From Cryomorphaceae bacterium (GTDB lineage Bacteria; Bacteroidota; Bacteroidia; Flavobacteriales_D; Crocinitomicaceae), in NCBI GenBank assembly GCA_027483605.1, contig JAIXUE010000002.1, forward strand, positions 1-64,000: DNA of 64,000 nucleotides. Direction: 5' to 3'. Both the position numbers and the translations under genes were made by a program. Positions within the stretch are counted from its first letter, which is position 1, and each line of letters starts with the position of its first letter. The notes under the pieces were generated by a model. The model saw only the letters and a program-made list of their open reading frames with translations. It had not been told where the DNA came from and did not search any database. Shown here piece by piece: positions 8,844 through 23,227 of the stretch.

Positions 8844-11180
8844 TTAGAACTTATAACTGATCCCTAAACTTGGTAAAACGGGGAATTGATAGATGATTTC
8901 GTTGGTGACGCGGTTTACGTAAAAGATATTGTTGCGGTTATATACGTTTGTTATGCCAATTACCAATTCTAAATTCGATTTGTTCTTCATGATGATACTG
9001 TGCTTTACAGTAATATCAAGGCGGTGATAAGAAGGTAATCTTTGTGAGTTAAAGGTGCCGAGCATGGTAGCTACGTTGTTGGGGTTATTGGTTACGTAGT
9101 CTGTGGTGAGGCCCTCTCCGAAATTTTCAAGTTGGTAGTAGCCTGCTGTTGGCGTGAATGGTAGCCCAGAACCTAAATTCCAACGAATATTGAGTTCAGT
9201 TTGCTTCTTTTTGCCAAAAGCATATGAGCCGACTAAATTTACGTTGTGGCGTCTGTCAAAGACAGGGAAGTAGTTGTCAAAACCATCCCAACGGGTATTG
9301 TATCCGAGTGAATAAACAGCCCAAAGGAAGACGCGGTCTTTGGCGTATTTGACAAGTGCATCTACACCATAGGATTGCCCAGATTCAATAATGAAATCTT
9401 TCTTGAAGACATCGTCGATCAGTTCGAACTGTGCGATATCAGAGTAAAGTTTGTTTTGATTGATGTTACTGAGTTGGTCAAAATATTTATAGTAGGCTTC
9501 AATGTTGACATTCCAATATTTATTGAGGTCATATTCAAAGCCCGCGATGGCGTGCCAAGCATATTGTAAACCATTTTTAATTTCAGAAACTTGTTGAAAC
9601 TCGTTAATGAATTGATCCTGTACATTTGTAGGCGCAGAGAGCAGTCCGTTAAATAGATTGACCACATCTTTGTCGGAAGAGGCCGAGGTGAAGTTTTGAG
9701 AGAATCTTCCGCCTGAAAACTTAAAGCGCAGTTTGTCAGAGGCATTATATTTTGCACCAATTCTAGGCTCAATAGAAACGGTATTGAGCGATGCGTATAA
9801 TTGCATGCGCACACCGCCTTGATACACCCAACGCGGGGTAACCAAACGGTAGTTCACGTAAGAGCCGATTTCGGTGGTGAAGTTACTGGCTTCAATTTTA
9901 CGTTCGAGTTCGTTGTATGTAATGAATTGGGTATTGAAGCCACTTAAATTGAAGCCGTAGTTGAGTTCGCTTTCATTCTTTTGAAAAAAAGTGAAATCAA
10001 AACCGAGATCAAAGCCACCAATTTTCGAGTATCGTGGTTCTTGTCCTGTTTCTAAAAAGGTTGTTTCATAATTACTACCATTGACATGTCCACGAATAAA
10101 AATAGGAGAACTACTAGGCACAAGCGTAAAATTAAGCCCGCCTCCTGCCGCATTCCAGTCCAGGTCGGCGACGTTGTAACTAACGGAGTCTTGATTAGAA
10201 AAACCGAAAACACTTACCTTAGAGCCGCCTTCGCCATTAAAGGTTACTTTCCCGTAGAGGTCAGTGAAGTTAAAAGGAAGACCGTTGCCGTCGTTTACGG
10301 TTGGATACAAAGACTTGCTGGTGTAGTCTAGAAGTGAATGCTTTCCAGTTAACATGTAAGAACCACTGGATAAACCATCTTTTCCTTTTTTACCCAACGG
10401 ACCTTCAATTACTGCCTTTGTCATGAAAGGAGATGCAGAAACTTTACCCGCAAACTTACTGCGGTTACCATCTCGGTAGGTGATGTCCATGACCGACGAA
10501 ATACGCCCTCCATATTTAGATTCAAAGCCACCCGTGTAGATGTCTACGGACTTCACGAGCTCAGTTTCAAAAATCGAGTAAAAACCGATGGAGTGAAAAG
10601 GGTTGTAGATGGTCATGCCATCGAGTAAAGTTTTATTTTGAATGGGTGTTCCACCGCGCACATACAATTGCCCTCCTTGGTCACCTGTGGTCACGACACC
10701 AGGGGTCACACTCAAGGCGCCGACAATATCGCTTTCTGCACCATACATCGGAATGCGCTCCACAGCTTGTTTGTCCATTTTTATTTCAGACATACCAATT
10801 TGCTGCTTCTTTACTTTAGCTTCATTGCTCACGCGAACATCCTGAACATTGAGCGTGTTTGGGTTCAAATTCCAAGAGCCAACATCATATATCTTTTTGG
10901 CAGCGGTCATTTCGACATTCAAAAAACTCCGCTCATATTTCCCCTTCTCAATTTTGAGGATGTAGTTTCCTACGGCTAATTTGGGAATAGAAAAGAAACC
11001 AGAAATATTGGAATAGCCCACTGCAATTGGGGTACTGTCTTGCTTGAGTACTTTGACGCGTTCGTCGGAGATGGGCTCTCCATTAGAGGCGTCGTGTAAA
11101 AATCCGCGAATGACGTAATCTTGGGCAGCAAGGGTATTGCAAACTAGAATCAGGAGGGGTAGGAGTATTCGTTTGAGCAT
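8844..11180 (-). CDS. TonB-dependent outer-membrane receptor with N-terminal carboxypeptidase-like domain
   Basis: A 778-residue outer-membrane transporter. It has a signal peptide (MLKRILLPLLILVCNTLAAQ), a CarboxypepD_reg-like beta-sandwich (about residues 22-105), a plug domain (about 120-230, with GQLYVRGGTPIQNKTLLDG and FESKYGGRISSV), and a 22-strand barrel ending in the aromatic terminus LGISYKF. The plug region is like the many non-SusC TonB receptors of Flavobacteriia. No SusD gene is adjacent, so it is not a typical polysaccharide-utilisation pair, and the substrate cannot be told. A near-consensus -7 element (TAACTTCG, 11200-11207) lies upstream. It is first in a unit with DUF1015 and yggS. 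Confidence 0.93.
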   Translation of the reverse strand: MLKRILLPLLILVCNTLAAQDYVIRGFLHDASNGEPISDERVKVLKQDSTPIAVGYSNISGFFSIPKLAVGNYILKIEKGKYERSFLNVEMTAAKKIYDVGSWNLNPNTLNVQDVRVSNEAKVKKQQIGMSEIKMDKQAVERIPMYGAESDIVGALSVTPGVVTTGDQGGQLYVRGGTPIQNKTLLDGMTIYNPFHSIGFYSIFETELVKSVDIYTGGFESKYGGRISSVMDITYRDGNRSKFAGKVSASPFMTKAVIEGPLGKKGKDGLSSGSYMLTGKHSLLDYTSKSLYPTVNDGNGLPFNFTDLYGKVTFNGEGGSKVSVFGFSNQDSVSYNVADLDWNAAGGGLNFTLVPSSSPIFIRGHVNGSNYETTFLETGQEPRYSKIGGFDLGFDFTFFQKNESELNYGFNLSGFNTQFITYNELERKIEASNFTTEIGSYVNYRLVTPRWVYQGGVRMQLYASLNTVSIEPRIGAKYNASDKLRFKFSGGRFSQNFTSASSDKDVVNLFNGLLSAPTNVQDQFINEFQQVSEIKNGLQYAWHAIAGFEYDLNKYWNVNIEAYYKYFDQLSNINQNKLYSDIAQFELIDDVFKKDFIIESGQSYGVDALVKYAKDRVFLWAVYSLGYNTRWDGFDNYFPVFDRRHNVNLVGSYAFGKKKQTELNIRWNLGSGLPFTPTAGYYQLENFGEGLTTDYVTNNPNNVATMLGTFNSQRLPSYHRLDITVKHSIIMKNKSNLELVIGITNVYNRNNIFYVNRVTNEIIYQFPVLPSLGISYKF

Positions 11181-11235: not shown

Positions 11236-12621
11236 TTAATGCGCAATAATGACCTTGTAAAATGATGACGGTGCGGAATCTAATTGTAGCAAATAGGTCC
11301 CGTTTTTGATGCTTTCGATGTCAATAGCATCTTGGCTCTTATTGATAGAGCCCGATAACACAACTTGCCCCCCTACATCGAATAACTGGAAGTGGGCATG
11401 AAATTCAGCTGGACCTTGAATTTGTAAGGTTTTATTGGCCGGATTCGGGAAAATTTGAAATGCGCCAAATGATTCTTCTAGACCGGCAATGTTGTTGCTG
11501 AAAGCGCAGCCATAATCATAGGTAACCAATAAATTATAGACCCCTGAGAAATTACTTTGAACCGTTAAACTGTCATTGGTAGCGCCTTGAATAGGGCTGT
11601 TGTTCAAATACCATTGATAGCTGAGGCCTTGAGTAGTTGTGCTGAGTACGTTTCCGTTTTGACTGATACTGACGGCAGGCACTGTTGTGGGGCAGGTGGT
11701 GGTGAGCGCAATGCCCGAAATTGGATCGGAAGCGAAAGATTCATAGGCACTGCAAGATAGGTCTAAGAAATAGGCTAACCAGGACGTAATTTGCTGGAAC
11801 ATCAAGCCTTGTTGCTCGGTTCTCGTGAGGCTGATACCCGTTGAGCTTGTGCTTTCGCCGAAATCGCAATTGAAATTGGTGTTGGCAAAGTAACAATGCC
11901 CGCCGCCTATCAGGCTTGAAAAGCTCTTGCATTCATGTGGAATGGCATCGTAAATGGGCAAATGGTGTTGACTTGGTGGTGTCACGCCATCGTTGGTGCC
12001 AGAAAGGATTAAGGAGGGCACCTGCAGATTGGCTGCCGCTGCAATGGCACTAGGGTTGGTTTCTGCCGGGGCAAGTCCGAGGTAGCAATCAAAAATATTG
12101 TTTTGGCTTGCTGCCAATACGGCTGCGCCCCCGCCCATGGAATGCCCCATGGCGCAAGCGTATTCAGTTAGTTTTCCTTCAAATAAACTACCTGTGGTTT
12201 GGGCCGCTGTTGTCATCTTTTGAGCAACGAGCGCGATGTCTTGCCCGAAATCGCCGTGGCTGGGTGCCGGAAACAAGCCACCCTCTGTGCGCGGAAAGGC
12301 CATGATGTAACCCAACGGCACCAGTTGATTCCAGATGTTCGAGTAGGCATCCCAATTCATGGCAAAACCATGGCCAAATACAATGATTGGAAACTGACCA
12401 TTGGCAACAGCCACATTTTCTCCTGCCGCAGCCGCAGGATAGTAAATTTCTGTTTGGATTTGCCGCCCGGGCCCAGCCCCGCTTCCAAAACCTCCTGTTC
12501 GGTTGGGGTCATTAAAGGTGAGGGTGGTGTGGCCAATATTCAGAGTTTGTGAAAAACTTAATGTAGTATGAAAAAGTCCGATCAAAGTAATCAGAGCGAG
12601 CTTGTATGTAGTGCTTTGCAT
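11236..12621 (-). CDS. T9SS-exported alpha/beta hydrolase, chlorophyllase/polyester-hydrolase-like
   Basis: A secreted serine hydrolase of 461 residues. The start chosen (MQSTTYKLAL) gives a clean signal peptide ending near SFSQ; an ATG 27 bases upstream would add a polar leader. The alpha/beta hydrolase domain (about 26-290) shows the oxyanion loop GHGFA, the nucleophile Ser161 in GHSMGGG, Asp211 in GTNDGVTPP and His242 in GGGHCYF, so the triad looks complete. An Ig-like segment (SYQWYLNNSPIQGATNDSL) precedes a C-terminal type A sorting domain (FQIFPNPANKTLQIQG to the end). This layout is shared with marine Bacteroidota esterases, including described polyester hydrolases; the actual substrate is unknown. 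A -7-like element (TTTATTTG, 12646-12653) lies upstream. Confidence 0.9.
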   Translation of the reverse strand: MQSTTYKLALITLIGLFHTTLSFSQTLNIGHTTLTFNDPNRTGGFGSGAGPGRQIQTEIYYPAAAAGENVAVANGQFPIIVFGHGFAMNWDAYSNIWNQLVPLGYIMAFPRTEGGLFPAPSHGDFGQDIALVAQKMTTAAQTTGSLFEGKLTEYACAMGHSMGGGAAVLAASQNNIFDCYLGLAPAETNPSAIAAAANLQVPSLILSGTNDGVTPPSQHHLPIYDAIPHECKSFSSLIGGGHCYFANTNFNCDFGESTSSTGISLTRTEQQGLMFQQITSWLAYFLDLSCSAYESFASDPISGIALTTTCPTTVPAVSISQNGNVLSTTTQGLSYQWYLNNSPIQGATNDSLTVQSNFSGVYNLLVTYDYGCAFSNNIAGLEESFGAFQIFPNPANKTLQIQGPAEFHAHFQLFDVGGQVVLSGSINKSQDAIDIESIKNGTYLLQLDSAPSSFYKVIIAH

Positions 12622-14330: not shown

Positions 14331-15041
14331 TTATTCTATCAGTAATTTTTCCTGTAAAATACCATTGACCGTTAATAAATAACATCCTTTGGGCAGGTAT
14401 CCGAGTTCTAAATCTATCGATTTTTGGCTTGTAGTGATTTGATAAACTTCTTTTCCCAATAAATCCGAACAGGAGATTTTTGAATTTACAGGTAAATGAT
14501 CGATATGAAATAAGCCATTACTTGGATTCGGGAATACCGTTATGGTACTTCTTACAACCATTTGAGCACTACTCGTTACGCACACTCCTTGGTAATAAGA
14601 GCTGACACCATAGTAAGAAATCGCTTGACAAGAATTTTGATACGTAACTGAATCACAACCGCAAACTGGGTCAATGACACCCGGGCAAAATACTTGGAGG
14701 TCAATCAAATTAGAATCAATGCAGTTCAACATGACTACTGTGTCTTGTAAGCACGCGCTGTTGCATTCGTAGGAAGAACTAAAAAATGAACTGGTATAAT
14801 CAATGCCATCGCTGCCAATCCAGCCGCAACCCGAGAGCAACACACAGCCAGTATCGGTCAGTGCCCAGCCCAGCGGCATGGCGCAAAAGCCAAAACTCAC
14901 TCCTAATGGGATCACATCACAAGTATCGTTAAGGTCTTTGGTGGGCCAGGCATCCCAATCTTTGGTACCTCTGATGGGCCAATCTTGTGCCTGGGAAAAC
15001 AAGGGAAGTAGAATGAGTAGGAGTTGTAAAAACGTTTTCAT
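14331..15041 (-). CDS. T9SS-exported protein with Kazal-like domain
   Basis: A 236-residue secreted protein. It has a signal peptide (MKTFLQLLLILLPLFSQA), a cysteine-rich N-terminal part (about residues 38-110), and a Kazal-like serine-protease-inhibitor motif (VCGCDSVTYQNSCQA, about 125-140, with flanking cysteines). It ends in a C-terminal type A sorting domain (ITVFPNPSNGLFHIDHLP, then ...LPKGCYLLTVNG). Kazal motifs in Bacteroidota T9SS proteins are common but their inhibitory activity is rarely tested. It follows the aminotransferase of the polysaccharide operon by 16 bases on the same strand, so it may be its last gene. Confidence 0.82.
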   Translation of the reverse strand: MKTFLQLLLILLPLFSQAQDWPIRGTKDWDAWPTKDLNDTCDVIPLGVSFGFCAMPLGWALTDTGCVLLSGCGWIGSDGIDYTSSFFSSSYECNSACLQDTVVMLNCIDSNLIDLQVFCPGVIDPVCGCDSVTYQNSCQAISYYGVSSYYQGVCVTSSAQMVVRSTITVFPNPSNGLFHIDHLPVNSKISCSDLLGKEVYQITTSQKSIDLELGYLPKGCYLLTVNGILQEKLLIE

Positions 15042-22336: not shown

Positions 22337-23227
22337 ATGAAAAACGTAGCAGTAATTGGTGCAGGCACCATGGGAAATGGCATCGCACACGTCTTTGCCC
22401 AATTTGGATACAATGTCAACCTTATTGATGTTTCTGAGGCCGCCCTCGAGCGCGCCATCGGGACCATCTCCAAAAACCTCGATCGCCAAGTAGCCAAAGG
22501 GAGCCTCACCGAGGAGCAAAAAGCCCAAACGCTACAAAACCTCACCACTTTTTCCAATATGGCTGAAGGCGTAAAAGGAGTTGAGTTAGTTGTAGAAGCT
22601 GCCACTGAAAACGTAGATTTAAAACTTAAAATCTTTAAAGACCTCGATGCATTTACCGCGCCAGAAGTGATTCTAGCAACCAATACGTCTTCAATTTCAA
22701 TTACCAAAATTGCGGCCGTTACCAATCGCCCCGATAAAGTGATTGGCATGCACTTCATGAATCCTGTACCGGTCATGAAACTCGTTGAAATCATTCGCGG
22801 TTATTCCACTTCAGATGAAGTCACGCAACTCATTATGGAAACCTCGCGCAGCTTGTCAAAAGTGCCTGTAGAGGTTAATGACTACCCTGGTTTTGTGGCC
22901 AACCGCATCCTGATGCCAATGATCAACGAAGCGATCTATACTTTGTTTGAAGGTGTGGCAGGCGTCGAGGAAATCGATACCGTTATGAAGCTTGGAATGG
23001 CGCACCCGATGGGCCCACTTCAATTAGCGGATTTCATTGGTCTCGATGTATGTTTGGCCATTTTAGAGGTCTTGCACGACGGTTTTGGCAATCCAAAATA
23101 TGCACCGTGCCCGCTGTTGGTTAATATGGTGATGGCAGGTAAAAAAGGAGTGAAGTCTGGCGAAGGATTCTATTCCTGGACCCACGGAACCAAAGATTTA
23201 GTGGTAGCCTCTAATTTTAAGAAGTAA
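22337..23227 (+). CDS. 3-hydroxybutyryl-CoA (3-hydroxyacyl-CoA) dehydrogenase
   Basis: NAD(P)-dependent interconversion of 3-hydroxyacyl-CoA and 3-ketoacyl-CoA, in fatty-acid degradation or butanoate metabolism. The 296-residue single-chain length fits the Hbd/PaaH type. The Rossmann motif GAGTMGNG is at residues 8-15; the C-terminal domain contains VIGMHFMNPVPVMKLVE with the catalytic histidine and VNDYPGFVANRILMPMINEA. The start is set by the conserved MKNVAVIGAG and by a promoter element overlapping the upstream GTG. It stands alone on the plus strand. Confidence 0.95.
   Translation: MKNVAVIGAGTMGNGIAHVFAQFGYNVNLIDVSEAALERAIGTISKNLDRQVAKGSLTEEQKAQTLQNLTTFSNMAEGVKGVELVVEAATENVDLKLKIFKDLDAFTAPEVILATNTSSISITKIAAVTNRPDKVIGMHFMNPVPVMKLVEIIRGYSTSDEVTQLIMETSRSLSKVPVEVNDYPGFVANRILMPMINEAIYTLFEGVAGVEEIDTVMKLGMAHPMGPLQLADFIGLDVCLAILEVLHDGFGNPKYAPCPLLVNMVMAGKKGVKSGEGFYSWTHGTKDLVVASNFKK

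Follow-up and report, generated by a model that had tools for sequence, protein, structure and literature searches.

The locus described here raises the question of whether a secreted bacterial hydrolase that is labelled 'PETase' by profile libraries should be expected to act on plastic. The search for plastic degradation in nature reported in the available part of PMC8767016 began from a PETase profile search, and the present gene carries a match to such a profile. It lies within the first 64,000 nucleotides of contig JAIXUE010000002.1 of a Cryomorphaceae bacterium (assembly GCA_027483605.1; this whole stretch is called the window), on the minus strand, with its ATG at 12621 and its stop ending at 11236. 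The earlier note had placed the gene exactly, from ATG to stop, leaving the strand unstated. We consider it likely, with a probability of roughly 0.7, that the product is a PET38-like secreted serine ester hydrolase for natural aliphatic esters rather than for PET, and that the TonB-dependent receptor encoded next to it is not a dedicated partner. The gene and its parts are the following.

11236-12621, minus strand: complete gene for a PET38-like alpha/beta hydrolase with a T9SS tail, 461 aa + stop (ORF and translation)
12547-12621, minus strand: putative N-terminal export signal, about residues 1-25 (inspection; helix in the model)
11728-12543, minus strand: catalytic alpha/beta-hydrolase domain, residues 27-298 (PF12740 match, model, Foldseek and VIA matches to PETases)
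11482-11712, minus strand: beta-rich (Ig-like) segment, about residues 304-380 (secondary structure, full-length model)
11242-11457, minus strand: T9SS type A sorting domain, about residues 389-460 (PF18962 and TIGR04183; beta-rich in the model)

Scanning the hydrolase against Pfam placed the PETase family PF12740 at residues 58-251 (56.8 bits, cut-off 28) and Por_Secre_tail PF18962 at residues 390-459 (45.1 bits, cut-off 27). Hydrolase_4 (31.8 bits, cut-off 27) and PAF-AH (20.6 bits, cut-off 20) also passed, and additional weak alpha/beta-hydrolase matches all stayed under their cut-offs. In NCBIfam, the T9SS type A domain TIGR04183 scored 37.7 bits (cut-off 23) and the BHET hydrolase equivalog fell far short (35.6 bits against a cut-off of 520). 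The sorting domain read earlier from the letters is thus recovered by both libraries, and the proposed signal peptide is visible by inspection as a hydrophobic N-terminus. The Ig-like segment fared less evenly: beta strands are indeed predicted at about residues 304-380 (block pLDDT 88-95), but no significant Pfam domain was found there, Ig_2 reaching only E 0.17.

Relatives of the hydrolase are encoded at at least 539 of 596 candidate places in the contig collection, of which 80 were kept as loci. The alignment used below has 68 members, namely this hydrolase, a Fluviicola protein and, once near-duplicates had been removed, 66 of the 69 complete frames from the 80 loci; the 67 other full-length members are 74-41% identical to the hydrolase. 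The frames were chosen by the HSMGGG motif, which by itself makes H160, S161, M162 and the glycines invariant. The domain combination is more than chance, as all 68 aligned members match the PETase family and 64 of 68 the sorting domain. When the whole protein was searched against its own genome (E <=0.001), the 20 matches were the gene itself and 19 that covered the C-terminus only (query residue 299 onward), and the PF12740 profile gave three matches, the second listed at 26.1 bits and below the cut-off. The genome therefore has no second, closely similar copy of the catalytic domain.

The predicted structure supports a PETase/polyester-hydrolase fold. The catalytic-domain model (20 homologues) reached pLDDT 89.5 and pTM 0.90, and the full-length model (68 sequences) pLDDT 90.4 and pTM 0.77, with a signal helix at residues 4-21, the hydrolase, strands at about 304-380, a linker at 381-390 (pLDDT 64) and a beta-rich tail in this order. 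With the catalytic-domain model, Foldseek was led by Ideonella PETase entries and PET30 (E 7.4e-15 to 7.8e-15, TM 0.67-0.70, 20-21% identity), and VIA-align by GlacPETase 8x6v (Z 27.9, rmsd 2.0, 227 aligned), the next rows being PE-H, CtPL and PETase at Z 26.3-27.0. With the full-length model, 8x6v was again on top in VIA (Z 29.9, rmsd 2.1, 240 aligned) and the other 49 listed rows had Z 28.3-28.8. Ideonella PETase entries also headed a profile search of PDB sequences (best E 1.6e-25). Structure prediction had been proposed as a check on the hydrolase assignment, with a non-esterase family as the outcome to fear, and the best matches turned out to be PET and polyester hydrolases.

The residues around the predicted active site are listed next, with their state in the 68-member alignment.

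12364-12366, minus strand: F86, by alignment at the place of the Ideonella PETase Tyr that serves oxyanion hole and clamp; Phe in 66/68, gap in 2/68
12139-12141, minus strand: S161, predicted nucleophile (GHSMGG); 68/68, which is no independent test in members selected by the motif
12064-12066, minus strand: A186, position of the PETase clamp Trp185 by alignment; Ala in 68/68
11989-11991, minus strand: D211, predicted catalytic acid; 68/68
11896-11898, minus strand: H242, predicted catalytic base; 68/68
11854-11898, minus strand: loop H242-E256 with C243 and C252, a possible disulfide beside the catalytic His; both Cys in 68/68

The triad Ser161/Asp211/His242 and the GHSMGG elbow had been numbered correctly from the sequence, and in alignments the three residues, part of a confident model, fall on those of the catalytic triad in a variant Ideonella PETase. 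Invariant in all 68 members without selection are D211, H242, C231, C243, C252, E113, H122, E256, R267 and A186. Cysteines occur in pairs, C231 with C290 in 64/68, C243 with C252 in 68/68 and C310 with C372 in 61/68. A further pair beside the nucleophile strand, C156 and C179, is complete in 6/68 and half present in 4/68, mainly in the closest relatives, and may form a bond specific to one clade. A simple pattern search found the HC...C loop in 68 of the 69 complete frames, and the loop H242-E256 is modelled less confidently than the rest (block pLDDT 81 and 75). Among 11 wider Bacteroidota proteins from a PF12740 search, both loop cysteines are retained in four (L187, L181, L190, L192) and not both kept in seven (L182-L186, L189, L191), and therefore the loop appears to mark the nearer group only; the clamp position is Ala in all 11 of these when aligned.

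Compared with the Type II PETase of Ideonella sakaiensis, the hydrolase shares the fold, the triad and Met in the elbow, but identity is about 18-22%, Ala stands at Trp185 and a T9SS tail is added. It has His at what we take to be Trp159 in the Ideonella numbering, and the second disulfide of type II enzymes, presumably the active-site pair Cys203-Cys239, is absent by alignment, the aligned positions being G208 and Y244 (row 6ky5). According to the available part of PMC13396203, types I and II have at subsite I an aromatic clamp made of Trp together with Tyr or Phe, and type III is marked by a Gln that follows the nucleophile and a Thr in the oxyanion hole. At the clamp the hydrolase retains F86 and lacks the Trp, as do all 68 members, and at the type III positions it has M162 and F86. 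Thus, it has the PETase fold but falls outside types I, II and III by their residues.

Among described proteins, PET38 of Fluviicola taffensis (WP_083800582.1) comes closest; for it, the available part of PMC8767016 gives an F-M-A motif, 447 aa and a PorC tail. We infer that the Fluviicola homologue in our set (L169 / G117) is PET38. It is encoded at L169:4673-6052 with 459 aa, or 447 aa from M13, and is 43% identical to the hydrolase. The published length would result if translation began at codon 13 of the 459-aa frame, 12 codons after the first ATG, and with such a start much of the likely signal peptide of PET38 would be lost. The two proteins have in common the F-M-A motif, the triad and a single catalytic domain ahead of a long C-terminal part that includes a sorting domain; PET38 differs in having no C156/C179 pair. 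In the same source PET38 was obtained in small quantity, tested negative and received no further characterisation (PMC8767016, available part), and it was subsequently counted among the PET-inactive proteins (PMC9772341, available part). The failure of PET38 may only reflect low or insoluble expression. The hydrolase studied here is a real, complete and ordinary enzyme with an export tail, and a new member of the PET38-like group.

The other described Bacteroidota enzymes to be considered are PET30 of Kaistella jeonii (7pzj, the 'bacteroidetal PET esterase') and PET27 of Aequorivita. PET30 resembles the hydrolase in fold (Foldseek E 7.8e-15, TM 0.70) and matches it in sequence in both the catalytic domain and the tail, and it was the best single PDB sequence match (E 7.6e-15), with half of the score coming from the sorting domain. 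It is however 21% identical and has Ser, not Cys, after the aligned His. Both PET27 and PET30 share the type A sorting domain with the hydrolase, and the suggestion that its layout is common to Bacteroidota polyester hydrolases was borne out, since signal, single hydrolase domain and type A sorting domain recur in PET27-PET30 (PMC8767016, available part). The binding motif is F-M-Y in PET30 and F-M-W in PET27, in contrast to F-M-A in the hydrolase. Further, PET27 and PET30 have 364-366 aa with about 100 residues beyond the catalytic domain (PMC8767016, available part), and from this length the extra beta-rich segment is probably missing from them.

Is the hydrolase then a true polyester or PET hydrolase of the PET27 and PET30 kind, normally acting on natural polyesters (cutin-like, PHA) and on PET as a side substrate? 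Structurally it is closest to PET and polyester hydrolases, the secretion layout is that of PET27-PET30, and PET30 acts on PET with Tyr in place of Trp (PMC8767016, available part), so that the change in the clamp does not by itself rule out PET activity. Against this stand the Ala at the clamp Trp throughout the alignment, the low identity to the solved PETases listed (the 18-22% given above), the negative result of the nearest described relative with its caveat of low expression (PMC8767016 and PMC9772341, available parts), and the lack in this genome of a match to PF00848, the alpha subunit of ring-hydroxylating (Rieske) dioxygenases, in a search that was positive in 4/14 control genomes. 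As PF00848 was not found, the usual route for terephthalate seems to be missing. The resemblance to active PET hydrolases is weakened by PET38, the nearest described relative, which showed no activity though poorly expressed, and we regard a true polyester or PET hydrolase of this kind as unlikely. The earlier note had also named chlorophyllases, and an enzyme of that type would remove phytol from the chlorophyll of decaying algae. Plant and Oscillatoria acuminata chlorophyllases are alpha/beta hydrolases with GHSxG and Ser-Asp-His as well, a cyanobacterial chlorophyllase has been modelled on the polyester hydrolase PE-H (PMC7802212, available part), which indicates close folds, the host is probably bloom-associated (PMC9878933, available part), and the Chlorophyllase profile PF07224 matches 66 of the 68 aligned members at E <=0.001 (best 8e-14). 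In the hydrolase, however, this match is marginal and partial (residues 73-169 only, 26.2 bits against a cut-off of 26) and far below the PETase score, and its Met at x gives GHSMG, which is none of the elbows reported for chlorophyllases in the available part of PMC7802212, GHSRG in plants and GHSFG or GHSWG in cyanobacteria. The chlorophyllase reading is hence very improbable, and a PET38-like hydrolase of aliphatic esters is preferred.

The distribution of the family adds to the caution about the profile label. PF12740 was found at E <=0.001 in 212 of 392 Bacteroidota genomes, 85 of them over the cut-off, and in 6/14 control genomes at E <=0.001; because it also passes the cut-off in 4/14 controls, PF12740 alone does not mean polyester hydrolase. 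Among the best 30 loci, 12 score >80 bits to PF12740, including this genome and one of its genus. Most locus titles are of Crocinitomicaceae or Flavobacteriales MAGs, the others including Chryseobacterium, Chitinophaga and Saprospiraceae. Two loci titled Sphingomonadales (L060) and Verrucomicrobia (L125) encode proteins 80% and 59% identical to the hydrolase and are perhaps mislabelled MAGs. A second Bacteroidota PF12740 group has a GYSMGGY elbow (L193, L195, L197, L200, L202, L203, L205, L208, L209) and is different from the PET38-like group.

Regarding the host, the T9SS translocon protein SprA is present in the genome (TIGR04189, 2327 bits, cut-off 200), and together with the type A C-terminal domain this is what is expected of a T9SS cargo. 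A 3-hydroxyacyl-CoA dehydrogenase is encoded in the genome, with one match within the window (22889-23179). A FadL-type transporter (PF03349) was not found in the genome by a search that was positive in 3/14 controls, and this gives no help to a fatty-acid reading. The physiology fits the use of aliphatic acids better than that of aromatics, without identifying the substrate. The genus UBA952, to which the host probably belongs, has been called a freshwater spring-bloom specialist (PMC9878933, available part).

The earlier note had also pointed to a TonB-dependent receptor nearby, as a possible importer of products. The receptor does adjoin the hydrolase:

8844-11180, minus strand: TonB-dependent receptor, 55 bp downstream of the hydrolase on the same strand

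It had no NCBIfam match. A unit for degradation and uptake finds support in the short gap, the common strand and the adjacency of the two genes in 18 of the 33 hydrolase-bearing genomes of the host genus. In the other 15 adjacency was not seen. The receptor is nevertheless present in 191/200 family genomes at E <=1e-50 (143/146 of the good ones; this genome included), against 92/200 for the hydrolase at E <=1e-5, or 87/200 once five weak partial matches were dropped (G017, G025, G026, G032, G125). Among 60 nearer genomes, this one included in both counts, the receptor was found in 58, in this set as in the family usually as a single copy, and a hydrolase match in 36, of which those in G017, G025, G026, G032 and G048 are weak. 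Outside the host genus, adjacency was seen in 0 of the 41 hydrolase-bearing family genomes that could be checked, mostly fragmented assemblies, with 13 others left out of the count. Most non-adjacent pairs lie on separate contigs, so that adjacency across a contig break could go unnoticed; pairs on the same contig are 58 kb (G164), 83 kb (G185) and 935 kb (G117) apart, and in G036 the hydrolase is cut by the contig end. In all five hydrolase-lacking genomes inspected, the receptor occurs without a hydrolase beside it, being adjoined directly by a ComM-like gene, as we presume it to be, in G008 and G015 and by other genes in G012, G017 and G025. A degradation-and-uptake unit therefore has very little probability. 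The receptor occurs whether or not a hydrolase is encoded and is best taken for a core gene, beside which the hydrolase stands in part of one genus. As a candidate partner it was rejected on its near-universal presence and on an adjacency limited, among the genomes that could be checked, to part of that genus.

Across the 80 loci, many of which are cut by contig ends, the commonest neighbours are the presumably ComM-like gene, seen in 39 loci and no more than 300 bp away in 28 of them, and the receptor, seen in 23 loci and equally near in 21; their linkage to the hydrolase is read as plain synteny. Rarer neighbours are one on the opposite strand (15/80 loci, with 11 of its 18 ORFs within 300 bp) and one on the same strand (9/80 loci, 8 within 300 bp). 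A scan for promoters and terminators was near chance (12 against 8.4 expected and 6 against 6.5 expected), and a phage tblastn search gave no matches. At 14331-15041 on the minus strand, a 236-aa protein combines a Kazal-type inhibitor domain (PF00050, 24.6 bits, cut-off 21) with a T9SS sorting domain, and a homologue of it is found at the corresponding place in several relatives.

Taken as a PET38-like ester hydrolase, the protein would be carried through the outer membrane by Sec export and T9SS, the type A tail would be removed, and the enzyme would either be set free or be anchored at the cell surface. With H242 and D211 activating it, S161 would attack the ester carbonyl to form an acyl-enzyme, from which acid and alcohol would be released. 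By analogy with PETase, the oxyanion hole is probably made by the backbone NH of F86 and M162. The enzyme probably has an open pocket, like that of polyester hydrolases, but without the aromatic clamp, and for lack of this clamp an aliphatic ester is a likelier natural substrate than PET. Such an ester could be a lipid or an aliphatic polyester from algal or detrital matter, a substrate class suggested by the absent features together with the ecology.

The clamp residue, the PET38 result and the missing terephthalate dioxygenase argue against taking the 'PETase' label here as a sign of plastic degradation. We would also suggest, tentatively and at somewhat less than even odds, that the PET38-like proteins are a type of their own in the PETase superfamily, clampless Bacteroidota surface enzymes in which an HC-x8-C loop follows immediately on the catalytic His. 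They would be adapted to one particular natural ester and common among freshwater bloom bacteria. If true, this would be a subtype beyond the present I/II/III scheme, and the ester might be, for example, an algal lipid or a storage polyester. A protein that profile libraries call 'PETase' is now tied to a widespread group, for no member of which a demonstrated activity was found in the literature searched. Were a soluble member available and its substrate known, this would shed light on a family that is present in 87/200 of the sampled family genomes.
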